In this document: one piece after another, positions 49,362 to 61,502 of the stretch
Numbering within the stretch: position 1 is the first letter of the stretch
Layout: each line of letters opens with the position of its first letter
Origin: Kiloniellaceae bacterium
GTDB lineage: Bacteria > Pseudomonadota > Alphaproteobacteria > Kiloniellales > J153
Reading direction: 5' to 3'
DNA length: 61,525 nucleotides
Assembly: GCA_021776115.1 (NCBI GenBank)
Contig: JAJFGN010000056.1
Span: forward strand, 1 to 61,525
The notes under the pieces: model-generated
Told to the model about the DNA's origin: nothing
Seen by the model: only the letters and a program-made list of their open reading frames with translations
Databases searched by the model: none
Position numbers and translations under genes: made by a program

Positions 49362-50066
49362 TCACGGAACGGCGCACCCGTCCGGGGATTGGTGCGTGAA
49401 ACGATAGATTGCGGCACCAGCCAGCATTCCCGCCACCGGGCCGACGACATAAATCCAAAAGTGTGTGAAATCCCCGAGCGCGAGATAGGGTCCGAAGGCG
49501 CGCGCCGGATTCATTGCCGCGCCGGCGTAAGGCCCCATGAGCATGACCTCGACCCCCACCGTCGCACCGATCGCCACGCCGGCGAAGGGGATGTTGGTAT
49601 TCTTCTCGTGATAGGCCGCGCCGCAGATCACCCACATAAGAATGAAGGAAAGAATGAGTTCGATAACAAAGGCCTCCCCGGGCGTCACGCCGAGCGCCGT
49701 GTTTGGAAGATTAGCTCCCATGTCGCCATGCCGCCCGACCGTCCGCAGAAGCACAAACCCGGCGGCCGCCGAGCCGGCGAGCTGAGCCACGATATACCCT
49801 GGCGCAAGGCGTTTTTCGAGCTTGCCGAGATAGACCGCCGCAAGCGAGAGCGCCGGGTTCACGTGCGCGCCCGAAACATGGCCGAAACAATAGATGACAA
49901 TGGTGATGACCAGGCCCGAGATCAGCCCAGGACCAATCGCCCCCAGTCCACCCGTCACCGCCCCGACCATCACCGCGCCCGCGGCAAAGAATACGAGCAT
50001 AAAAGAGCCGATGAATTCGCAGCCGTACTTACTCAGATCCTGCGGCCGTATCACCAGCGCCTTCAT
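49362..50066 (-). CDS. MIP-family aquaporin/channel
   Basis: 234 residues, six helices, two NPA half-helices (HVNPALS near 68 and AMNPARAF near 185). The start overlaps the VWA-protein stop by 4 bp, so it is translationally coupled. In other amide operons a small amide channel (AmiS/UreI type) occupies this role, so this protein may pass urea or short amides instead of only water or glycerol. That is inference from position. Confidence 0.9.
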   Translation of the reverse strand: MKALVIRPQDLSKYGCEFIGSFMLVFFAAGAVMVGAVTGGLGAIGPGLISGLVITIVIYCFGHVSGAHVNPALSLAAVYLGKLEKRLAPGYIVAQLAGSAAAGFVLLRTVGRHGDMGANLPNTALGVTPGEAFVIELILSFILMWVICGAAYHEKNTNIPFAGVAIGATVGVEVMLMGPYAGAAMNPARAFGPYLALGDFTHFWIYVVGPVAGMLAGAAIYRFTHQSPDGCAVP

Positions 50067-52351
50067 GAAGTGAGCCGGAAATAGAGCATCGGCAGGCGCT
50101 CGGGCAGGCGCTCCAAGCGGTCGATTTGCACAACGTTTCGGCGCCCGAAGATCCGTGCGAGATAGCTGTCGCCGCCCGAATCCAGCCCAACGCAGAAGGT
50201 ATCGATTCCATCGCCAGCCAAGGACATCACCGCCTTGCGGGCGTCTTCGACGAGATATTTCTTGTCGGTAACATCCACATCGGATGGCTCGCCGTCGGTG
50301 ACGATCAGAAGCAACCGGCGATGGGAACTTTGGCCGGCCAGGTCGGCACCGGCGTGGCGTATCACGGCGCCGATTCGTGTCGACAATCCGCCTTCGAGCC
50401 CTGCGAGCGACGATCGGGCCATGGCGTCGTACGGCGCGGCAAAGTCCTTAATTCGGTAATAGCGCACCTCCTCGCGACGGTTCGAGCAGAAGGCTGCTAT
50501 CGCGAAAGGATCGCCAAGACCGGCCATGGCATGGGCGAGAAGAGCGGTCGCCTGCCGTTCGAGATCGAGGACCGTCGTCGTCGCGCCCAGGACTTTGTCC
50601 TTGGTCGATTCCGAGATGTCTAGGAGAACCAGCACCGAAAGATCGCGGTGCCGACGAGCCATTGTCGCATAAACATGCGGATCGGGGGTTACACCGATCC
50701 TACGGCTCACGACGGCATCGATGCAGGCGTCGATATCCAGACACTCACCCTCGGCCTGACGCTTCAGACGTTCCGTCCGCCCTACGCGCGCCGAGCGGAT
50801 GAGCGCCGTGATCCGGTTCACGATGTCGTGTCGGTCTTCGAGAATACGCTCGACCAGGTTGGCCGGTCCGGGCTTCGGCTGGTACTCGACAATGGTCGTC
50901 CAATCCGCCCGCTCGCGCCCCGTCACGTAGTCGTACTCCGGGTAGCGGGCTACGGGGATTCCCTCATCCTGGTAGGCTTCGCGCGACAGAGCGGCGCGGT
51001 TTACCTGGTCGTCCTCGCCTTCCGCCTTGCGCTCGCGATCGGGCGGGGAGGTAGCATCGTCCTCCTGCTGCTCGAAGCGCACCGCTTCGAAAAGAAGCTC
51101 CGCCTCCTCGAAGTCCGAGGCGTCCGGATCGTTGAAATCCCAAAGCCCCATATTGTCATCGCGGTAAGGCGGCTCGGCGACATACGTCCGAGGATTGAAC
51201 TGGACCCGCATCTGTCCGAGATCGTTACCCAGAAGACCGCCGATTTCGCGGCTGAGTTGAGGGTTTTCCCATTCGTCCTCGCGCGCGAAAAACCTTTCGC
51301 GTCCCTTGCGAACCCAGCCGTCGGCGTCCTCGAAGCCCGGATCGATCAGGGCGCGCGACAAGCGAGCAAGCAGGCTCGGCGCGGTGGACGCCCCCGATGC
51401 CTGAGCTATGTGAAACGGTAGCCAGAGCCGTCTCAGCCCCGGAAATTCCCGCATCGCGAGGTGCTCGACCCGGGCATCCTCGATCAATGAGACGAGCGCC
51501 ACCTGGAGCGGCTTCAAGCTGCGCAGCGGAAATTTCTCTCCCGAATACATGAAATGCGCCGCGACGTGGGCCAGGCCGGCACGGAAAACCTCCTCCGCTT
51601 GCAGGCCGCGATAGCCTGGAAAAGTCGGCGGAAGCAGTATCAAACCGCGATCGAAACTGATCCGCCGGCGCGATTGTTCGGATGCGCTCGGCGACGGTTC
51701 CCGGATCGGAACACGAAGCCGCCAAAGCGCAATGAGATACGCCTTGAGGCGCCGCTCCATATCGGTGAAAAGGACCTCGCCGGATTCGCGCTGCAACCAA
51801 AGCTTCGCTTGTGGATCGGCAAAAGTGAAGAAGCGCAGGCGGCGCTCTGCGTCGCCGCCGCCAGAGCGCACGCCGGCAAGCACCCATGCCTCGAGCCGCG
51901 ACACATTGAGATTGCTCAGGAGCGTTTCCATACTCTCGAGAACGGGCACCACGGACTCGGGCGCCAGCGCCGCGAACCTCTCGATAACGCCCAGCCACGA
52001 TCGAAAGAGCTGCTCGTTCTTCAGCCGCTCGGCCGCCTTGAGCGCCGCCCAGGGCAATAGCTCGCCGGCCTTGCGTTTCGCCTTTATGGTTATGGCGGAA
52101 ACTGAGTCGACCAGTTCGATGGCGACTTCCGGGCCTAGAATCTCCGCGATCGCCGGCGTGCTGCGGACGTAGGCTGTAACGACGGCGTCGCCGTAACCGG
52201 CTTGCACCAATTTACGGCAAGCCCTGAGCCATCGGGCCGCTAGGTCTTCGGGGAAGGCGCGACGAACGGCCGGGGTCAGGAGCCGTTCCTCACCCCCCTC
52301 CCCGCTTGGAGAAACCACTTTCAGGAAATTCGCGGATTTTGTTGTCTTCAT
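50063..52351 (-). CDS. VWA-domain protein of the NorD/CbbO family
   Basis: 762 residues. A long helical N-terminal region is followed by acidic middle segments and a C-terminal von Willebrand A domain with the MIDAS start LVLLDISEST and a VTDGEPSD loop. It partners the MoxR ATPase encoded just upstream (12 bp gap) in remodelling a client enzyme. Related pairs serve nitric oxide reductase (NorQ/NorD) and RuBisCO (CbbQ/CbbO). No such enzyme is present here, so AmiE or another protein of this operon is the likely client. Confidence 0.9.
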   Translation of the reverse strand: MKTTKSANFLKVVSPSGEGGEERLLTPAVRRAFPEDLAARWLRACRKLVQAGYGDAVVTAYVRSTPAIAEILGPEVAIELVDSVSAITIKAKRKAGELLPWAALKAAERLKNEQLFRSWLGVIERFAALAPESVVPVLESMETLLSNLNVSRLEAWVLAGVRSGGGDAERRLRFFTFADPQAKLWLQRESGEVLFTDMERRLKAYLIALWRLRVPIREPSPSASEQSRRRISFDRGLILLPPTFPGYRGLQAEEVFRAGLAHVAAHFMYSGEKFPLRSLKPLQVALVSLIEDARVEHLAMREFPGLRRLWLPFHIAQASGASTAPSLLARLSRALIDPGFEDADGWVRKGRERFFAREDEWENPQLSREIGGLLGNDLGQMRVQFNPRTYVAEPPYRDDNMGLWDFNDPDASDFEEAELLFEAVRFEQQEDDATSPPDRERKAEGEDDQVNRAALSREAYQDEGIPVARYPEYDYVTGRERADWTTIVEYQPKPGPANLVERILEDRHDIVNRITALIRSARVGRTERLKRQAEGECLDIDACIDAVVSRRIGVTPDPHVYATMARRHRDLSVLVLLDISESTKDKVLGATTTVLDLERQATALLAHAMAGLGDPFAIAAFCSNRREEVRYYRIKDFAAPYDAMARSSLAGLEGGLSTRIGAVIRHAGADLAGQSSHRRLLLIVTDGEPSDVDVTDKKYLVEDARKAVMSLAGDGIDTFCVGLDSGGDSYLARIFGRRNVVQIDRLERLPERLPMLYFRLTS

Positions 52352-52363
52352 GATCCGGCAAGC

Positions 52364-53161
52364 TTACGCACATGCGGCGATCGCCGAGGTTAGCGCATCG
52401 CGCATATCCGGATCATCGGTAATCGGCAACACGAGAGCGACCTGACAGGCTTCGCCAAGCGGTATACCGCGCGCGATTAGCTGACCGGCATGAACCAGCA
52501 TTCGGGTCGAGACCCCTTCGTCCAGGCCATGTCCCTTGAGATTGCGGGCGCGCGCCGCAATGTTGACGAGTTGGACCGCCACCTTGTTGTCCACGCCGGA
52601 TTCATGGGCGACGATCTCGGCCTCCAGGTCCGCGGGCGGATAGCTGAAATCGATGGCCCCAAAACGCTGCTTGGTTGATTCCTTAAGGTCCTTCAGAACG
52701 CTCTGGTAGCCCGGGTTGTAGGAGATTACGACCTGGAAGTCTGGGTGCGCCTTGATGACTTCGTTCTTTTTCTCAAGCGGTAGAATACGACGTTCGTCGG
52801 TGAGCGAATGGATAACCACGGTCGTGTCCTGGCGGGCTTCGACAATCTCGTCGAGATAGCAGATTCCTCCATGACGGACGGCCAGCGTCAGCGGCCCGTC
52901 GTTCCATACCGTTCCCTTGGCATCCAGGAGGAAACGGCCCACGAGGTCGGAGGCCGTCATATCCTCGTGGCAGGAAACGGTGAGCAGCGGCTTGCCCAAT
53001 TTCCAGACCATGTATTCGATGAAACGCGTTTTGCCGGAGCCTGTCGGCCCCTTAAGCATCATCGGCATGCGGTCGGCGAACGCTGCCTCAAAGAGAGCAA
53101 CCTCGTTGCCGACCACGCGATAGTAAGGCTCTTCGTCGATCCGGTAGTCGTCCAGGTTCAT
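52364..53161 (-). CDS. MoxR-family AAA+ ATPase (CbbQ/NorQ type)
   Basis: 265 residues from ATG 53161. Walker A GPTGSGKTRFIE, CYLDEIVEARQD as Walker B, and a sensor/arginine-finger region. Length and sequence match CbbQ/NorQ. It drives ATP-dependent activation together with the VWA protein. It lies 140 bp after amiE. In Pseudomonas aeruginosa the amidase operon encodes an unrelated AAA+ protein, AmiB, so this pair may fill that role. Confidence 0.92.
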   Translation of the reverse strand: MNLDDYRIDEEPYYRVVGNEVALFEAAFADRMPMMLKGPTGSGKTRFIEYMVWKLGKPLLTVSCHEDMTASDLVGRFLLDAKGTVWNDGPLTLAVRHGGICYLDEIVEARQDTTVVIHSLTDERRILPLEKKNEVIKAHPDFQVVISYNPGYQSVLKDLKESTKQRFGAIDFSYPPADLEAEIVAHESGVDNKVAVQLVNIAARARNLKGHGLDEGVSTRMLVHAGQLIARGIPLGEACQVALVLPITDDPDMRDALTSAIAACA

Positions 53162-53301
53162 GCGGCGACACTCGACTAGGGTTTGCACCGGCGTGCCGAC
53201 CAGGGCCACCACGCATCTTTCATGCCGGTGGCGGCGTCTCGGTCAGGCACAGGATGAACAAAGACGGGGCGGAATACGCCCGCGCCACAGGTTCAACATG
53301 G

Positions 53302-54342
53302 TCAGCGGTGCGTCGCGGTCTTCTGGTTAGGGAGACCTTCAATCGGACATTCCTCGGTACCGACGGTCTCGCGCGTAATAGCCTCGACCATTTCGCGCGT
53401 GCCCTCGGGATCGGTGATCCATTTCTTGTAAAAATCGTATGGGCAAACCGCTTCGCCCTTTGAGTCCTCACCCGAATTGATCTGGCCCGTGTAGCCGCGG
53501 TGCAGCAGCTTGAACAGGTGGTTCTCGGACTGCATGGTGCGGCGCGCATCGCGGATCAACGAGGTCGAGAGAGCGGCGTACTGAATGCCGTTCTCCTCCT
53601 CGGCGCATTCGCCAAGCGTCCGGCCATCAAAACCGATGATCGCCGAATGGCCGAAATAGGAGTAGACGCCGTCAAAGCCAGCCGCGTTCGCGACGGCGAC
53701 ATAGACGTTGTTGGCCCACGCCATGGCCTTGGCCATGATCACCTGCTGGTCTTTGGATGGGTACATGTATCCCTGGCAGCGGACGATCAACTCCGCGCCC
53801 TTCATGGCGCAGTCGCGCCAAATTTCAGGGTAGTTACCGTCATCGCAGATGATGAGACTGACCTTCAGGCCTTTCGGTCCCTCGGATACATACGTGCAGT
53901 TGCCCGGATACCAGCCCTCGATCGGCACCCAAGGCATGATCTTGCGGTACTTCTGAACGATCTCGCCCTTGTCATTTATCATGATAAGCGTGTTGTAAGG
54001 CGCCTTGTTCGGGTGCTCTTCATGGCGTTCGCCGGTCAAGGAGAATACGCCCCAGACCTTATTTCTTATGCATGCCTCGGCCAATATTTCAGTCTCTTCG
54101 CCCGGACAGGACGAGGCTGTTTCATACATTTCCTTCTCGTCATACATAATCCCGTGGGTGCTGTATTCAGGAAAAATGACGAGATCCATGCCTGGAAGAC
54201 CGACCTTCATGCCGTCGACCATTTTGGCGATGTTTCGCGTGTTCGTGAGCACCTCTTCCCGGGTGTGGAGGCGTGGCATCTTGTAATTGACGACGGCGAC
54301 GCCGACCGTGTCTTTGCTACTCGAAATATCACCGTGGTACAT
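53302..54342 (-). CDS. amiE: aliphatic amidase AmiE
   Basis: 346 residues. It aligns with Pseudomonas AmiE from the first residues ([25 protein letters not shown]). The nitrilase-fold catalytic set is in exact register: Glu59 (FPEY), Lys134 (KYRK), Glu142 and Cys166 (LIICDDGN). It hydrolyses short aliphatic amides such as acetamide and propionamide to the acid and ammonia. The closely related formamidase AmiF shares this framework, so strict substrate range is not proven. It follows urtE by 60 bp in the AmiC/AmiR-controlled operon. Confidence 0.95.
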
Positions 54343-54402: not shown

Positions 54403-55098
54403 CTAAACAGCCATATGCCGATGAACGAGGTCGTCCGTCAGTTCGTCGACGGATCCGCCTGCCGCGACGCTGCCGCGGTCCATGAGCACGAACCTATGCG
54501 AGACCCGCCGCGCGAACGCGACGTTTTGCTGGACAAGCACAATCGTCAGGCCGTGCTTCTGATTGAGCCGGACAAGCACTTCCTCAATCTGTTCGACGAT
54601 ATTGGGCTGGATACCCTCGGTCGGCTCGTCGAGCAGGATTACTTTCGGGTCGGTGAGCAATGCGCGGGCGATCGCCAGTTGTTGCTGCTGGCCGCCCGAA
54701 AGGTTCCCGCCGCGCCGGTTCAGAAACTCCTTGAGGATGGGAAACAGCTCGAAGACCCATTCGTTGATTTCGCCATTTCCCTTGGCGGTCGCGAAAGTAC
54801 CCATGAGCAAATTTTCGCGCACGGTGAACTTGGGAAGGATGCCGCGCCCCTGCGGCGCATAGCCAATACCGGCCAGCGCGCGGTCGCTGGTATCCATACC
54901 GTTTATCTCCTGACCGTCGAGCGTGATGCTTCCGGTGACCCGGTCCATGAGCCCCAGAATGGCGCGCATCAACGTGGTCTTGCCGACGCCATTGCGTCCC
55001 AGGACGCTCACGAACTCACCCTTGGCAACCTGCATACTCACGTTCTGGAGTGCCGGGCTGTTGCCGTAGAAGGCGTCTATGTTTTTGATATCAAGCAT
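54403..55098 (-). CDS. urtE: urea/amide ABC transporter ATP-binding protein UrtE
   Basis: 231 residues from ATG 55098; the frame extends upstream into urtD without an RBS. Walker A GRNGVGKTT, signature LSGGQQQQLAIA, Walker B VILLDEPTEGIQP. The opening IDAFYGNSPALQNVSM and the EGIQPNIVEQIE phrase are typical of UrtE. It overlaps urtD by 8 bp. Confidence 0.92.
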   Translation of the reverse strand: MLDIKNIDAFYGNSPALQNVSMQVAKGEFVSVLGRNGVGKTTLMRAILGLMDRVTGSITLDGQEINGMDTSDRALAGIGYAPQGRGILPKFTVRENLLMGTFATAKGNGEINEWVFELFPILKEFLNRRGGNLSGGQQQQLAIARALLTDPKVILLDEPTEGIQPNIVEQIEEVLVRLNQKHGLTIVLVQQNVAFARRVSHRFVLMDRGSVAAGGSVDELTDDLVHRHMAV

Positions 55099-55855
55099 GG
55101 CTGATACCACCGGATCCGAGATAAACGGACCGGACCTCCGGGTGCTGCTCAATCTCGCTGACCATTCCCTCCGCAAGCATCTTTCCCTGGTGCATGACCG
55201 AGATCACCTCGCCGATTTCCTTGACGAAGCCCATATCGTGCTCGACGACGATCAGGGTGTGCTTTCCCTTGAGACGGCTGAACAGATCAACGGTCTGACT
55301 CGTTTCTTGGACCGTCATGCCGGCCGTCGGCTCGTCCATCAGAATGAGCTCGGGGTCCTGGGCGAGCAGAAGCGAAATCTCAAGCCATTGGGTATGCCCA
55401 TGCGAGAGATGCCCTGCCGGGGTGTCCAGGTAATTTTCCAGGCCGACGAGCTCAGCAAGTTTCTCTAACCCGTCCCGATCCGCGCCTCGGCCGAATAGGA
55501 GCGCATTGGCAAATACGCCCGGAGATTTGCTATAGCTGACTTCGAGATTGTCGCGCACAGTGAGCTCATGAAAGACGCTCGGTACCTGGAACTTCCGGCC
55601 AATACCGGCGCGGGCGATTTCGTGCTCCTCGAGTTTGTTAAGGGTCTTGCCCTCGAACGTGATCTGGCCCGACGTGGGCTTGACCTTGCCACAAATCATG
55701 TCCAACGCCGTTGTCTTACCGGCGCCGTTCGGGCCGATGATGCAGCGTAATTCGCCTTGCCCCACGTTGAGGTTAAGCCCCTCTACGGCGTGAAAGCCGT
55801 TGAAAACCACCGAGACGTCGGTCAGGACGAGGTGATCGTGCCGATTTGTCGTCAT
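55091..55855 (-). CDS. urtD: urea/amide ABC transporter ATP-binding protein UrtD
   Basis: 254 residues from ATG 55855, overlapping urtC by 4 bp. Walker A GPNGAGKTT, signature LSHGHTQWLEI (the LSHG variant usual for UrtD), Walker B LILMDEPTAGMT. Branched-chain-amino-acid-type (LivG-like) ATPase. Confidence 0.92.
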   Translation of the reverse strand: MTTNRHDHLVLTDVSVVFNGFHAVEGLNLNVGQGELRCIIGPNGAGKTTALDMICGKVKPTSGQITFEGKTLNKLEEHEIARAGIGRKFQVPSVFHELTVRDNLEVSYSKSPGVFANALLFGRGADRDGLEKLAELVGLENYLDTPAGHLSHGHTQWLEISLLLAQDPELILMDEPTAGMTVQETSQTVDLFSRLKGKHTLIVVEHDMGFVKEIGEVISVMHQGKMLAEGMVSEIEQHPEVRSVYLGSGGISHA

Positions 55856-56982
55856 CGTGGAGCACCGGCCTTGCTCTCGACGCCGCACCGGTCCGCGGCG
55901 ACACTCGATTTGTCCGGCACCGCATCGTCCTTGCGGAAGATGCGGTCGACCAGCATCTCGATCGCGCCCGCAAGACCCTTTGGCAAGAACAGGACGACGA
56001 CCACGAATGTGAAGCCCATGATAAGCGTCCAGGTCTCGAGAAAAATTTCAGATTCGGAAAGAGCGCCCTGCATACCCGTAACGACGATCGCCCCCAGGGC
56101 TGCGCCAAGCAGACTTTGTCGACCGCCCACGGCGCACCAGATGACGACCGAGAGACTGAGCTGCACGCCGAGGAAGGTCGGCGAGGCGAACTCCATCACG
56201 ATGGTGTAAAGCATGCCGGCAAAGCCAGCGATTCCGGCCGAGACCGCGAAGGCAAAGGTCTTGAACCGAGCCACGTCGTATCCGAAGTAGCGGACCCGCT
56301 CCTCGTGATCCCGAATGGCCTGCAGAATGAGGCCCGCCTTGCTCTTGGTAACCGCAAGCGCGAAAAACAAACTCACGGTCAGAGAAATGGCGATCAAGTA
56401 GTATGAGGACATGCTGTAAGCATCGAAGGTCAGTCCGAAGAGTTCGAGTTGTGCGAGGTCTGTGATGCCGTTGAAGCCGCCGGAAAATCGCTGTTGGTCG
56501 ATGATCAGGAGGTTCACCACGACGAGCGCGGCGAGCGTGATGATCGCGACGTAAACACCGGTGACCCGGCCACGAAAAATGAACGAGCCGAGCAGCACGG
56601 CGAAAACTACCGGCACCGCGACGCCCGCGAAGATCGCGAAAGTCAGCGAGTAGAACGGTTCCCAGAACCACGGCAGCGTCTCGACATTGTTCCAGACCAT
56701 GAAATCAGGAAGCCCGGCCTCGCCGGTATGAACCGGGATGGTGCGCAATTTGAGCGCCATCGCCATGGCGTATGAGCCGAGCCCAAAGCTCGCCGCCTGA
56801 CCCAGATTGAGAATGCCGGCGTAACCCCATGACAGACTGAGGGCTATGGCAAGGATACCAAGTACAAGGTAGCGCGCGTATTTATTGAGAATGAAGGCAT
56901 CATCCATGAAGCTGGGAACCAGCAGGATCGCTAGGCAAACGATGCCGTAGGCGGCAATCTGCAGGGCCGTGCGTTTAGACAC
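55852..56982 (-). CDS. urtC: urea/amide ABC transporter permease UrtC
   Basis: 376 residues from GTG 56982 with AGGAAG immediately upstream, which is tight spacing. LivM-like, about ten helices, with SWGYAGILNLGQAASFGLGSYA and RDHEERVRYFGYDVARFKTFAF loops and SLSVVIWCAVGGRQSLLGAALGA. It pairs with UrtB. Confidence 0.92.
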   Translation of the reverse strand: MSKRTALQIAAYGIVCLAILLVPSFMDDAFILNKYARYLVLGILAIALSLSWGYAGILNLGQAASFGLGSYAMAMALKLRTIPVHTGEAGLPDFMVWNNVETLPWFWEPFYSLTFAIFAGVAVPVVFAVLLGSFIFRGRVTGVYVAIITLAALVVVNLLIIDQQRFSGGFNGITDLAQLELFGLTFDAYSMSSYYLIAISLTVSLFFALAVTKSKAGLILQAIRDHEERVRYFGYDVARFKTFAFAVSAGIAGFAGMLYTIVMEFASPTFLGVQLSLSVVIWCAVGGRQSLLGAALGAIVVTGMQGALSESEIFLETWTLIMGFTFVVVVLFLPKGLAGAIEMLVDRIFRKDDAVPDKSSVAADRCGVESKAGAPR

Positions 56983-57029: not shown

Positions 57030-57899
57030 TCATGTCCTCACCTTGGCAGCGAACAACCCCTGCGGGCGGAAACGGATCAGGACCACAATGGCACAGAACA
57101 CCAGCACCTTCGCCATCGTGTCGTTGCTATAGAACGCGAGAAAACCCGTGAGTTCGCCGAGTATCGCGGAACTGGCAACCGTGCCGACCAGGCTTTGGAC
57201 GCCGCCTAACACGACGACCATGAAGGCATCGACGACATAGGTCGTGCCCATCTCCGGCGATACGCTCTTGAGAGGGGAAACAAGCGCCCCCGCGAGCCCC
57301 GCGAGACCCGCGCCATAGGCGAAGGTGAGACTGTAAATGCGTTTACTCTTGATGCCGAAGCAGCTCGCGATCTCCCGATCCTGTGTAATCGCGCGCAATT
57401 TCATACCGAGGCTGGTCCGGTACATCAGGTACCAGGTGAAGCCAAAGATCAGGGCCGATAGCGCAAGAATGAAAAGGCGAAACGCGGAGATCTCCAACCC
57501 GAGGATCGAAACGCTGCTGCTCATGGCCGACGGCATCTCCACATAGCGAAGCTCGCCGCCCACGGCCAGGCGTATCGCCTGCTGCGCCATCACGCCGATG
57601 CCCCAGGTCGCAAGGATCGTATCCAGCGGCCTTCGGTAGAGATGGCGGATAACCACCTTTTCAATGATCCAACCAAATAGTGCGACCGTAAAAAAGATCA
57701 CCACGAGGCTCTCGATTAAACCGATCCCGACATAGGTTTGCAGCGCCCAAGCGGTATAGGCCCCAATCATGACAAACTCGCCATGCGCTAAGTTGATGAC
57801 ACCTGTGGTGCCATAAATAATCGCCAGCCCTAGCGCCACCAGCAGAAGAATGGACGCAATGCTCAGACCCGTGACGATTTGCGCCAGAATTGTTTCCAT
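57030..57899 (-). CDS. urtB: urea/amide ABC transporter permease UrtB
   Basis: 289 residues, shorter than many UrtB proteins because the N-terminal extension is missing. LivH-like permease: YGTTGVINLAHGEFVMIGAYTAW, RAITQDREIASCFGIKSKRIY, VVDAFMVVVLGGVQSLVGTV. 47 bp before urtC. Confidence 0.92.
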   Translation of the reverse strand: METILAQIVTGLSIASILLLVALGLAIIYGTTGVINLAHGEFVMIGAYTAWALQTYVGIGLIESLVVIFFTVALFGWIIEKVVIRHLYRRPLDTILATWGIGVMAQQAIRLAVGGELRYVEMPSAMSSSVSILGLEISAFRLFILALSALIFGFTWYLMYRTSLGMKLRAITQDREIASCFGIKSKRIYSLTFAYGAGLAGLAGALVSPLKSVSPEMGTTYVVDAFMVVVLGGVQSLVGTVASSAILGELTGFLAFYSNDTMAKVLVFCAIVVLIRFRPQGLFAAKVRT

Positions 57900-58008: not shown

Positions 58009-59256
58009 TCAGATCTCCTTGAGACCGGCTTCAGTGCAGACCTGATTCTGGTAGGCCTTATAGGGCTCGGGTTTCAGCCACTCCGACGTCGTTTTGAGAA
58101 CTTTGAACTGCCCGTCGGATTGGCTTTGGCCGATTTTCGGCCAGAGATAGGCGTGCAGGTTCTCCGGCTCAATGCGCACCCTACCTTGGGGCGCGATCAT
58201 CTCCTCGCCCTTGATCGCTTCTACGATGGTCTTCGGGCTGATATCCCCAGCCGAGAGTTTCTCCACCGCCTGCTTGAACAGGTGGACCTGGAAGTAGGAC
58301 GGCTCGGAGACGAAGTGCGTGACCTTATCGCCACCCCAGCGCGACCGGTAAGCCTCCACGAACTTCTGGTTCTCAGGCGACTCATGAACCATGAAATACG
58401 GTGCCGAGGTGAAGTGCCCGGCCGCCGCATCGCCGCCCATGGCCGCTACCTCGTTCTCCGAGGTCGTGAGGCTAGCCATAGGCATCTTTTCCGGGTCGAG
58501 GCCGGCCGCGCGGTACTGGCGGTGTAACGCCACGACCGAATCACCGACCACGGTGGAAAAGATTACATCCGGCTTCTCGCTACGGAACTTGTTGATGACC
58601 GACGAGAACTCGGAGTGACCGAGCGGCACATACTCTTCATGGACGACCTCGGCGCCAGCTTCCGCCAAAAGTTTCTTGCAGTAGTTGTTTTCTTCCTTTG
58701 GATAGATGTAGTTGGAGCCGATCAAATACCAGCGCTTACCAAATTTCTCGATAAGCCAGGGAACGAACTCGTCCTGCTGCTGGTTCGGCACCGCGCCAGT
58801 GTAGATCACGTTCTTCGAACATTCGCGCCCCTCGTAGAGGGTCGGGTAGAAATAGAGATTCTTGCGCTTCTCGAAGACGGGCAGCACCGCCTTGCGGCTC
58901 GCCGAGGTGTACGACCCGAACACGCTGACGCACTTGTCGCCAAGCACCAGCTTGCGTGCCTTTTCGGCGAAAGTCGCCGGATCGGACGCCGGGTCCTCGA
59001 CGATCGGCTTGATCTGCATGCCGTTGATACCGCCCGCGGCATTGATCTCCTCAATCGCCAGAATCGTGGCCTTGTGCAAGGATTCCTCTACTATCGCCGT
59101 GGTGCCCGTAAGAGAGAACAAGACACCGACCTTGATCTCACCGCTCGCGGCATAGGCCAGTGAACTATCCTTGATCCAAATGTGCGGGAAACCGGCCGCG
59201 GTAACCGCGCCGGCCGCCACTGTTCCCTTGATGAATGTCCGCCGTCCCAACTTCAT
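58009..59256 (-). CDS. urtA: urea/amide ABC transporter substrate-binding protein (UrtA/FmdD type)
   Basis: 415 residues from ATG 59256 with GGGAGGTGG. A Tat motif (GRRTFIKGT) opens the signal sequence, as in many UrtA proteins. The mature part matches UrtA/FmdD: GVLFSLTGTTAIVEESLHKATILAIEEINAAGG, FGSYTSASRKAVLPV, YPTLYEGRECSKNVIYTGAVPNQ. It is clearly homologous to the AmiC encoded upstream. Whether urea or short amides are preferred cannot be decided. The gene is behind the attenuator at 59.4 kb. Confidence 0.93.
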   Translation of the reverse strand: MKLGRRTFIKGTVAAGAVTAAGFPHIWIKDSSLAYAASGEIKVGVLFSLTGTTAIVEESLHKATILAIEEINAAGGINGMQIKPIVEDPASDPATFAEKARKLVLGDKCVSVFGSYTSASRKAVLPVFEKRKNLYFYPTLYEGRECSKNVIYTGAVPNQQQDEFVPWLIEKFGKRWYLIGSNYIYPKEENNYCKKLLAEAGAEVVHEEYVPLGHSEFSSVINKFRSEKPDVIFSTVVGDSVVALHRQYRAAGLDPEKMPMASLTTSENEVAAMGGDAAAGHFTSAPYFMVHESPENQKFVEAYRSRWGGDKVTHFVSEPSYFQVHLFKQAVEKLSAGDISPKTIVEAIKGEEMIAPQGRVRIEPENLHAYLWPKIGQSQSDGQFKVLKTTSEWLKPEPYKAYQNQVCTEAGLKEI

Positions 59257-59284: not shown

Positions 59285-59323
59285 AAAACCCCAGCGCCGT
59301 CCGCCGAAGCGGTTGCACTGGGG
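59285..59323 (-). terminator. second terminator-like hairpin in the urtA leader
   Basis: On the minus strand CCCCAGTGC pairs with GCGCTGGGG (9 bp, one G-U), followed by TTTTGTCTTTC. It ends 29 bp before the urtA ATG. The U-tract is weaker than at the upstream site. Confidence 0.5.
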
Positions 59324-59405
59324 CATCATTGCCTACTTCTTTTCTTGGCGGCCGCACTGCCGCCCGCATCACACCTTTGCCTGCCCGTTCAGCAAAGCAG
59401 GCCAT

Positions 59406-59446
59406 AAAAAAACCTCACGCACGCGCTGCTCGCGACTTGCGTAAGG
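59406..59446 (-). terminator. attenuator terminator in the urtA leader (AmiR target)
   Basis: On the minus strand CCTTACGCA (complement of 59438-59446) pairs with TGCGTGAGG (complement of 59413-59421) over 9 bp with one G-U, followed directly by seven U (59412-59406). It is a textbook rho-independent terminator located between amiR and the first structural gene. Confidence 0.85.
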
Positions 59447-59457
59447 CTTCCTTGCCC
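59444..59457 (-). promoter_or_regulatory. ANTAR-type hairpin P2 overlapping the attenuator stem
   Basis: Minus strand GGGC-AAGGAA-GCCT: short stem (one G-U) with a six-base loop having A at position 1 and G at position 4. Its 3' arm uses bases of the terminator's 5' arm (59444-59446), so the two structures exclude each other. Confidence 0.6.
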
Positions 59458-59470
59458 AATAAATTTTGAT

Positions 59471-59486
59471 GCGGCGCCATTGCCGC
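59471..59486 (-). promoter_or_regulatory. ANTAR-type hairpin P1
   Basis: Minus strand GCGGC-AATGGC-GCCGC: perfect 5-bp stem and six-base loop with A1 and G4. It precedes P2 by 13 bases, giving the dual-hairpin arrangement recognised by ANTAR proteins. Confidence 0.65.
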
Positions 59487-59534: not shown

Positions 59535-60257
59535 TTAGCCGAGTAACTCCTGTGAGTCAACTATGACATTGGCGAGCGCTCCGATCGTCACCCGGCGCTC
59601 CATGGCATGGCACCGGAGATAATGGTAGGCCTCCTCCTCGCTAAGGCTCCGGCTCTGCATGAGGATCGCCTTCGCGCGTTCGACGCTACGCATGGTGCGG
59701 AGATTATCGTCTAGCTTGTCAACGCGGCCACGCAGCCGGCGCTCGTAAAGAAAATGGCACCGACCAAGGAGCAAGCTGGCAAGCACGGCTTGAGCCGTTA
59801 CCGGCTGATGAACGACGGCGTGTGGCGCGCAATTGTGCAAGAGCTCGAGGTCGATCAACGGCGTCGCCGCCGCGATAACGACAAGCGCCGCATCCGGCTT
59901 CCCGGGAAGCCAGGGCAGTCGCTGGGGCAGGTCATTGACCAGATCGCAGTAGATCACATCGAAGGTTATTGGAATCAGCACCGGGATCGGCCAGATGTGT
60001 TGCACTCGGGCGCGAGTTCGCTGAAGCTCACGCAGCAGTTGCTCGCCCGCTTGATCGCGTGCCGTAAGAACCGCGATCTCGAGGTCCCGGAAGTCCTGAG
60101 GGAATGGATGTTCGGAGCTCGACTTCCGCTCAGCAGAACCTGTCATGGCGCCCGCCGAGCCGGACTCGGGCGTAAGCTCATCACGCGCACGCGGCGCGCC
60201 TGAATTCAATTTAAGTGCGGGTTTGGTATTTTTTGACATCCCACGAAGCCTGTTCAC
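59535..60257 (-). CDS. amiR: AmiR-like ANTAR-domain antiterminator
   Basis: 240 residues from GTG 60257, overlapping the amiC stop (GTGA); ATG 60239 is an alternative. The N-terminal pseudo-receiver domain (LEIAVLTARDQAGEQLLRELQRTRARVQHIWP) lacks a standard phospho-acceptor pocket. A coiled-coil linker follows, then a C-terminal ANTAR three-helix domain (SVERAKAILMQSRSLSEEEAYHYLRCHAMERRVTIGALANVIV). It binds leader RNA to prevent termination and is normally held inactive by AmiC without inducer. Confidence 0.93.
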   Translation of the reverse strand: MNRLRGMSKNTKPALKLNSGAPRARDELTPESGSAGAMTGSAERKSSSEHPFPQDFRDLEIAVLTARDQAGEQLLRELQRTRARVQHIWPIPVLIPITFDVIYCDLVNDLPQRLPWLPGKPDAALVVIAAATPLIDLELLHNCAPHAVVHQPVTAQAVLASLLLGRCHFLYERRLRGRVDKLDDNLRTMRSVERAKAILMQSRSLSEEEAYHYLRCHAMERRVTIGALANVIVDSQELLG

Positions 60258-61393
60258 CCAAAAGCAATACTGCGACCATATCCGATGAGATATGGGTCCG
60301 CGCTTACAGGCGCCGGCGACTCGTAGACCAGATCAAACTCGCCAAGTCGATTGGCGCGTCCAATTCGTGTCCACAGATCGGTATGGCCGCACAATGGATT
60401 GACGGATACCTTGCCCTGCGGAGCCTCGATCTCGGAACCGAGGATACTGGGACGGAGTGTTTCCGTGTCCATGGAGTTCGCCTGCTTCAGCGCCTTGGCG
60501 AATATGTGCACTTGGAAATACGCAGCCTCCAGACACATGTTCGTATCTTGGTCATCGCCGTAGCGTTTCTTATAGCGCTGGACGAAGTTCAAGTTGCGCT
60601 CGCTACCTATGCCCTGGAAATAGGACGCAGCGGTGATGTGTCCCTCGCCCACGTCGAAACCCATGGCACGAATTTCGGCTTCCGTGGTTGTAAGGCTCGC
60701 GATGGGCATGCATTTCGGGTCGAGATGCAAGTCGGCATACGTTTGATACAGGTGCACCGTCGAATCTCCGACCACGGTCGAAAATATCACGTCCGGCATC
60801 GCGTTCTTGATATCACGTACCACGGGGAGGAAATCACTGCGTTTAGCGCGTAGGTCGAGATATCGCTCCCCCACAACCTCTCCGCCATTGTGGCGAACGA
60901 GCTCGCGCATGATCCGATTGGATTCGCGGGGATAGACATAGTTTGAGCCGACGAAATAGAACCGCTTGCCGTAGCGTTCCATCAGGAAGCGGCACAGCTC
61001 GACACTGTTCTGGTTCGGTGCCGCACCCGTGTATATGACGTTGGGAGAGAATTCGAACCCTTCATACAGTGTCGGATACCACAGCAGGCCATTCAAGCGC
61101 TCGACGACGGGCAAAACCGCCTTGCGGCTACTGGATGTGTAGCAACCAAAAATCGTCGTAATGCCGTCCTCGACCATCAATCTCTTAGCATAGCGCCCGA
61201 ATGCCAACGCCTCCGAAGCCGGGTCATACAATACGGGTTCAATGGGACGGCCGTTTATACCGCCGGCATCATTAATCTCGTCAATGGCGGTCAACGTACC
61301 ACGCAACTGAGTATCCTCGATAACGGCCATAAAGCCGCTACTCGAAAATAACACGCCGACCCGCCAGGGTTCTGAGGTCGTGGTATCGCGCAC
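60254..61393 (-). CDS. amiC: AmiC-like amide sensor/negative regulator
   Basis: 379 residues. The longest frame begins at GTG 61411, but the next bases are the Shine-Dalgarno GGAGGTGG itself (61408-61401). GTG 61393, seven bases further on, is the better start. It has the type I periplasmic-binding fold without a signal peptide (WRVGVLFSSSGFMAVIEDTQLRGTLTAIDEINDAGG; FGCYTSSSRKAVLPV; YPTLYEGFEFSPNVIYTGAAPNQ), a cytoplasmic relative of UrtA. It binds small amides and releases AmiR. First gene of the amide operon. Confidence 0.92.
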   Translation of the reverse strand: MRDTTTSEPWRVGVLFSSSGFMAVIEDTQLRGTLTAIDEINDAGGINGRPIEPVLYDPASEALAFGRYAKRLMVEDGITTIFGCYTSSSRKAVLPVVERLNGLLWYPTLYEGFEFSPNVIYTGAAPNQNSVELCRFLMERYGKRFYFVGSNYVYPRESNRIMRELVRHNGGEVVGERYLDLRAKRSDFLPVVRDIKNAMPDVIFSTVVGDSTVHLYQTYADLHLDPKCMPIASLTTTEAEIRAMGFDVGEGHITAASYFQGIGSERNLNFVQRYKKRYGDDQDTNMCLEAAYFQVHIFAKALKQANSMDTETLRPSILGSEIEAPQGKVSVNPLCGHTDLWTRIGRANRLGEFDLVYESPAPVSADPYLIGYGRSIAFG

Positions 61394-61502
61394 CAAAGAA
61401 CCACCTCCCACTTCGGTGTTTCCTCGCCACGGGGTCGCTTCGTACCGCCCACGCTCGCCAGGGTCACCAGAAGATTATTGCTCTACCTAAACTCCATCTC
61501 AC

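Follow-up and report, generated by a model that had tools for sequence, protein, structure and literature searches.

How is the expression of amide uptake and amide hydrolysis genes tied to their putative regulators in this Kiloniellaceae bacterium? The window, that is the whole stretch of 61,525 nucleotides that was analysed, carries on its minus strand an amiC-like gene, an amiR-like gene, a leader of about 275 nt, a substrate-binding gene, UrtB-, UrtC-, UrtD- and UrtE-type genes and an aliphatic amidase gene, in this order. A preliminary description, made from the sequence alone, had placed one complete ANTAR attenuator in the leader and a second, weaker terminator behind it. We propose, with a probability of roughly 0.8, that the 275 nt separating amiR from the transporter gene form a tandem ANTAR leader, in which two complete attenuators in series are antiterminated, twice over, by an AmiR held by AmiC. 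The basis of this reading is the presence of both structures in the sequence, their covariation, their recurrence in relatives and the gene context. From these we infer AmiR binding, an amide as the signal, one shared transcript and a multiplicative output.

The first gene (60254-61411) encodes an amiC-like amide sensor with a periplasmic-binding fold (Pfam Peripla_BP_5, E 5.3e-140). In the PDB ranking of its product, 8tg1, an 'extracellular ligand-binding receptor', comes first (1.3e-92) and AmiC 1pea second (9.5e-88), with urea-binding proteins further down, and its identity as AmiC is a putative one assigned by homology. The amiR-like gene (59535-60257, start codon uncertain) overlaps the amiC-like gene by 4 nt, with the open reading frames as listed, and encodes an ANTAR antiterminator by its matches to Pfam ANTAR (E 1.2e-14) and AmiR_N (E 1.4e-13) and to AmiR in the PDB (1qo0, E 1.5e-13). 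The attenuator does adjoin an AmiR-like gene, as had been claimed. EutV (6wsh) also matches the protein, at E 1.3e-6, and one Tyr and one Met are conserved between the two; by our reading of the numbering these would be Tyr164 and Met172 of EutV (PMC8934654). In the EutV-RNA structure, Tyr164 stacks on the G at position 4 of the loop (G4) and Met172 plugs the loop, while the A at position 1 (A1) is described in the available text as being without a specific contact (PMC8934654).

The first gene after the leader (58009-59256) encodes a Tat-type substrate-binding protein of a urea/short-chain-amide type ABC transporter; it matches Pfam Peripla_BP_5, and the UrtA model TIGR03407 stays below its cut-off. 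Genes for a UrtB-type permease (57030-57899, TIGR03409), a UrtC-type permease (55852-56982, TIGR03408), a UrtD-type ATPase (55091-55888, TIGR03411) and a UrtE-type ATPase (54403-55176, TIGR03410) follow, all above the cut-offs of their models. The last is the aliphatic amidase gene amiE (53302-54342; NF009802 705.5 bits, cut-off 427; PDB 2plq, E 1e-189). These family models bear out the transporter and amidase that had been expected downstream. Further 3' on the minus strand lie an AAA-type ATPase-like open reading frame (52364-53212) and a long one (50063-52351) that resembles a VWA-domain partner, both named from reading the sequence. Pseudomonas amiB also is an ATPase. At its gathering thresholds, Rfam reports only a tRNA in the window.

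All elements of the leader lie on the minus strand. In unit 1, the P1 hairpin (59471-59486, GCGGC-AATGGC-GCCGC, loop AATGGC) is followed, after a linker of 13 nt, by the P2 hairpin or putative antiterminator (59444-59457, GGGC-AAGGAA-GCCT, loop AAGGAA). Sequence, covariation, a covariance model and the predicted fold speak for both. The intrinsic terminator (59406-59446), seen in the sequence, in its recurrence in relatives and in covariation, has its stem at 59446-59413 and a T7 tract at 59412-59406. Its 5' arm starts inside P2, and the 3' arm of P2 and the core terminator stem have 3 nt in common. The complete attenuator at 59406-59486 that had been claimed, with A1 and G4 in both loops and with P2 overlapping the terminator stem, can thus be read directly in the sequence at exact positions, just after the amiR-like gene.

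The second terminator belongs to a unit of its own. Unit 2 has a P1 hairpin (59347-59364, GGCGGC-AGTGCG-GCCGCC, loop AGTGCG), a P2 hairpin or putative antiterminator (59322-59333, GGC-AATGAT-GCC, loop AATGAT) and an intrinsic terminator (59285-59323) with a stem at 59323-59289 and a T-rich tract. The order of the elements and the 13-nt linker are those of unit 1, and P2 and the terminator 5' arm have 2 nt in common. P1 is seen in the sequence, in covariation and with covariance models and is weak in the window's own predicted fold; P2 is seen in the sequence, the covariation data, the covariance models and the predicted fold, and the terminator in the sequence, in its recurrence in relatives and in covariation. 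The terminator is thus present where the preliminary description had it. It is not the weaker one by folding energy (-23.8 or -24.7 kcal/mol, vs -18.6 for unit 1), and only its U-tract, TTTTGTCTTT, is poorer than the T7 tract of unit 1. Nor is it plain, as had been assumed, since its own P1, linker and P2 make it a second complete ANTAR-type attenuator. All four loops of the two units are hexanucleotides with A1 and G4, on stems of at least 3 bp. The linkers count somewhat against the tandem reading: eut linkers measure 5-12 nt, and one of 14 nt, close to the 13 nt found here, impaired E. faecalis eutP (PMC3369931), although the eut range may not be that of AmiR.

Can such a pair arise by chance? 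Units were scored as P1-P2 pairs tied to a terminator, with a scheme written after the motif was seen. The two units score 12.6 and 12.8. Among the 24 terminator-linked candidates, counted over both strands of the 61.5-kb window, the next one has 11.6. Dinucleotide shuffles of the 275-nt leader reached a score of at least 11.5 in 0 of 1338 cases, which argues against base composition as the source of the motif. Circularity is reduced with a covariance model (R1) of 43 units of relatives, built without the window and its genus. R1 scores the two units at 38.1 and 37.0 bits and the next match in the window at 16.1. In the 4.3-Mb genome the two rank first and second, followed by a match of 21.8 bits, with 150 of 5280 first-look candidates scored. 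A second model (R2) was trained on first units only, again without the window's genus; E-values of both models are rough. Of the 24 tandem leaders, window included, 18 have their second unit recovered by R2 at E<0.05 and all 24 at E<=0.24, with unit 2 of the window at 1.3e-5. The six weak ones (E 0.12-0.24) are L036, L053, L054, L068, L074 and L077. Outside the leader units and the units before amiC described below, R2 has two matches at E<0.1 in the 27 sources of the leaders, L071 769-816 and L036 3846-3887, the latter on the strand opposite to unit 2 of L036.

Relatives of AmiR were drawn from genomes, plasmids and one scan covering three Kiloniellaceae MAGs and a Mesorhizobium. Two intrinsic terminators lie between amiR and the substrate-binding gene in 24 of 27 non-redundant leaders, the window included; the other three (L007, L009, L011) have one terminator and one unit. 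Near-identical rows (L042-L044, with L041 kept; L067, with L036 kept; L073, with L047 kept) and L033-L035, which duplicate L004-L006, had been dropped before counting. Also excluded were L048 and L075, where the genes after amiR are not those of a transporter (by annotation in L048, by a near-identical leader in L075), and L078 and L079, whose AmiR shares only about 40% identity. All four have a single leader terminator and bring the count to 24/31; in L075 and L078 a second, weaker hairpin follows more than 230 nt further on, probably within the next gene. Single-unit leaders, the 3 of 27 and the four outside the set, are a point against the tandem reading. More distant leaders, surveyed unsystematically, include some with one leader terminator or unit (L013, L038, L049, L050, L055, L056, L058) and others with neither unit nor terminator, for example L039, L051, L052, L061 and L063. 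In an AmiR tree of 38 rows, single and tandem leaders cluster, with 4 changes needed and none of 500 shuffles as low; the tree has long branches and does not settle whether the tandem state was gained or lost. Over the 27 leaders, the median distance from the amiR stop to the start of unit 1 P1 is 15 nt; in the window it is 47 nt. The spacer between the units runs from 24 to 125 nt over the 24 leaders (median 42) and measures 48 nt in the window.

Two observations concern plasmid records. L048, from an Agrobacterium plasmid, and L075, a near-identical genome locus, retain amiC-amiR and a unit before amiC, and their leader has one terminator without a clear P1-P2. L047 is the plasmid record NZ_CP084753.1, labelled Roseateles and flagged UNVERIFIED_ORG; the label may be wrong.

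For the alignments, regions were cut by the position of the terminator, not of P1 or P2, and aligned with MAFFT as 27 first or only units and 24 second units. The preliminary description had named covariation as a check on its attenuator, and covariation is found. In unit 1 (27 sequences, window included), 95.9% of the 270 cells of P1 and P2 are paired and 6 of 10 pairs have changes on both sides, in 33 cells, with a covariation score of 0.380 (0.197 shuffled). The unit 1 terminator is 79.2% paired and scores 0.260 (0.171 shuffled); its 16 two-side changes are equalled by a slide of -1, and its two innermost pairs are mostly unpaired in relatives. In unit 2, P1 and P2 are paired in 93.1% of 216 cells, with two-side changes in 5 of 9 pairs (11 cells) and a score of 0.158 (0.088 shuffled). 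These changes all fall within P1, where 12 of 24 sequences lack the outermost pair, and P2 is uninformative either way because its three pairs hardly vary. The unit 2 terminator is 84.8% paired, with 25 two-side cells and a score of 0.330 (0.148 shuffled). All four scores lie above every slid version and above all 500 shuffles, which ignore kinship. The number of further pair types is unremarkable, being reached by 90 (unit 1 terminator), 135 (unit 2 hairpins) and 412 (unit 2 terminator) of 500 shuffles. A plain terminator as the nature of unit 2 is argued against by its covariation and by its recovery with the model trained on first units only. That unit 2 is a recent copy of unit 1 is not supported, with a mean identity of 0.620 between units within leaders against 0.678 and 0.672 for the same unit across leaders; any duplication, if one occurred, would be old.

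Among relatives, G4 is better kept than A1. In unit 1 (n=27), G4 is present in 26/27 P1 loops and 26/27 P2 loops, and position 1 is A25 G2 in P1 and A19 G8 in P2. In unit 2 (n=24), G4 is present in 23/24 P1 loops and 18/24 P2 loops; position 1 is A6 G12 C3 T2 and one gap in P1, and A14 G10 in P2. Unit 2 is thus looser, with A at position 1 of P1 in only 6/24 and P2 without G4 in 6/24, and this counts against the tandem reading. The drift between A and G at position 1, beside a G4 nearly fixed in three of four loops, fits what the EutV structure paper states of the two positions in its available text (PMC8934654). To judge by these tallies, searches restricted to loops with A1 would overlook many second units. 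P2 loops that begin with U and keep G4 are found in ANTAR-type leaders at L055:1317-1356 (TATGCA), L056:2150-2187 (TAGGAA), L058:1990-2029 (TATGTA) and L060:1320-1359 (TATGTA), each with a terminator.

The predicted folds differ between the units. RNA folding, another check that had been suggested, supports unit 1: in a transcript ending at its T-tract, P1 forms 5/5 pairs (mean probability 0.99) and the terminator 9/9, and in the P1-to-P2 segment alone P2 forms 4/4 (0.94). In unit 2 the terminator forms 9/9 pairs and P2, before the terminator, 3/3 (0.82). For its P1, pairs form with a mean probability of only 0.15-0.23 when the segment is folded by itself and of 0.14 within the full leader, which would either count against this hairpin or mean that it needs AmiR or co-transcriptional folding. 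In the full-leader fold both terminators form and neither P1 does; P1 of unit 1 falls to 0.05, and the two P1 regions pair with each other, with 59479-59469 (the 3' part of unit 1 P1) against 59346-59357 (the unit 2 P1 region). Such pairing is to be expected of two similar stems at equilibrium and may say little about co-transcriptional folding; we nonetheless count this predicted fold against the tandem reading. Predicted energies are -4.4 and -2.8 kcal/mol for P2 of units 1 and 2, vs -18.6 and -24.7 for the terminators.

In the mechanism that we propose, each terminator hairpin would by default outcompete its weak P2; therefore, without induction, transcripts running past amiC-amiR would end at site 1, and what leaks through would be caught at site 2. 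The regulators amiC and amiR lie upstream of both gates and would therefore be made without induction. An amide bound by AmiC would free AmiR, in line with Pseudomonas, where RNA binding by AmiR answers to the amide-binding AmiC (PMC3369936). Freed AmiR would dock on the P1 and P2 hexaloops of each unit during transcription, hold P2 and so break the base of the terminator. The polymerase would have to pass both sites for the transporter and amidase to be expressed, and read-through would be the product of two probabilities, giving low leak and a steeper response. One message probably runs from amiC-amiR into both gates, since the short distance from the amiR stop to P1 leaves little room for a promoter and the spacer in the window has no sigma-70-like site. 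The same double lock is found in related bacteria, which suggests that a single RNA-binding protein exerts tight control of a switch-like kind.

Other arrangements would account for part of these observations. AmiR might regulate unit 1 only, and unit 2 might be either a degenerating copy or a simple backup terminator with enough residual leakage. The more variable loops of unit 2, the six second units that match the unit 1 model only at E 0.12-0.24 and the weakly forming P1 in the window would suit this idea. A plain terminator, however, needs no hexaloop hairpins, yet P1 and P2 of unit 2 are 93.1% paired with two-side changes in 11 cells and retain G4 in 23/24 (P1) and 18/24 (P2) loops, and a strong terminator without regulation should shut the operon down; we consider regulation of unit 1 alone unlikely. 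Somewhat less credible still is a pair of transcripts, where the amiCR message stops at unit 1 and a second one, controlled by unit 2 alone, arises from a promoter between the units. In favour of it, constitutive promoters precede several E. faecalis eut leaders (PMC5821096), and the spacer, at 48 nt in the window, reaches 125 nt in relatives. The sigma-70 pattern, the only promoter type searched for, is absent between the units in the window, and in 9 of 24 leaders the spacer is only 24-35 nt, with best -35/-10 matches of at most 7/12.

The genome also offers another candidate for the RNA-binding protein, since the assembly holds two ANTAR-domain matches in total. On contig 21, a second AmiC/AmiR-like pair (L002, G000:C21:141192-144332) is followed by another substrate-binding protein. 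Its AmiR-like product might bind the leader instead of, or besides, the adjacent AmiR. That gene sits in an AmiC-like/substrate-binding locus of its own where R1 finds no unit at E<=0.5, and adjacency favours the AmiR encoded at 59535-60257, which makes binding by the distant protein very improbable.

In some relatives the tandem leader is joined by a further unit. R1 finds one, with its own terminator, about the length of amiC upstream of amiR in L040, L046, L047, L048, L068, L070, L072, L074 and L075, and by annotation it lies before amiC in L046 (1536-1578), L047 and L048. When more upstream DNA was included, matches at a like distance appeared also in L093, L098, L099, L100 and L101, and those of L040, L068, L072 and L074 recurred; L045 (14.3 bits) and L072 (15.6 bits) are weak. 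With R1, no unit before amiC was found in the window's genus (L033-L035) or in L036, L041, L042, L088-L092, L094-L097, L102 and L103, where L092 barely extends past amiC, and none in the 114 nt left before amiC in the window up to the contig end. A unit before amiC would place the regulators themselves under AmiR control in those relatives. A wider picture, which we offer tentatively and hold to be possible but rather less than even, is that control by a serial ANTAR lock is conserved among alphaproteobacterial amide-uptake operons. Two attenuators in a row, or three in some loci, would have to be antiterminated by the same protein. Where a third precedes amiC, synthesis of the regulators would itself depend on AmiR, as a positive feedback, and unit 2 would have a different threshold owing to its laxer loops and weaker P1. 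Such RNA gates would together act as an ultrasensitive switch that hardly leaks.

Attenuation by dual-hexaloop ANTAR targets is known, also upstream of urea transporters and with several attenuators per transcription unit (PMC3369931). In the open-licence literature, covered incompletely and as text without figures or supplements, we found no description of two complete ANTAR units in one leader. As far as the sources consulted in part go, ANTAR antitermination has been worked out so far on leaders with a single terminator and a single P1-P2 pair. With two units in natural series under the same protein, one could see whether protein-dependent attenuators placed one after the other combine multiplicatively into a digital switch. 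Natural variation in the loops bears on the roles of A1 and G4, with G4 nearly fixed in three of four loops and position 1 usually A or G, or U in one side group.

The amidase operon of P. aeruginosa is alike in AmiC, AmiR, the aliphatic amidase and a dual-hexaloop leader that overlaps a terminator, and unlike in that its leader precedes amiE and its regulators lie downstream, according to the available text of PMC3369936 and PMC3369931. In the window, amiC-amiR comes first, the leader precedes a urt-type transporter and there are two units. The Pseudomonas order, with the leader directly before amiE and the regulators downstream, is not the one seen here, and the window locus is therefore a rearranged relative and not the same operon. 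The EutV/EutW eut locus of E. faecalis shares several ANTAR attenuators, P1/P2 loops with A1 and G4 and a P2 that overlaps the terminator, but has one terminator and one P1-P2 pair before each of eutP, eutG, eutS and eutA (PMC3369936; PMC5821096). The window has two complete units at one junction; the eut regulator is phosphorylated in the accounts available, whereas the one here is presumably held by AmiC. The ANTAR regulon of Desulfotomaculum acetoxidans comprises at least 13 ANTAR attenuators spread over six transcription units, which means that one such unit can have several; back-to-back units in one leader are not stated in the main text available (PMC3369931). Pseudo-cooperative tandem riboswitches, such as those for TPP, are alike in having two independent units in series that answer the same signal with a steeper response (PMC9481103), and unlike in that the sensor is a metabolite-binding RNA where here it would be a protein, AmiR. 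The architecture of the window matches such a tandem regulator in having two complete units in series, and the steeper response that we expect of it is carried over from the riboswitches.
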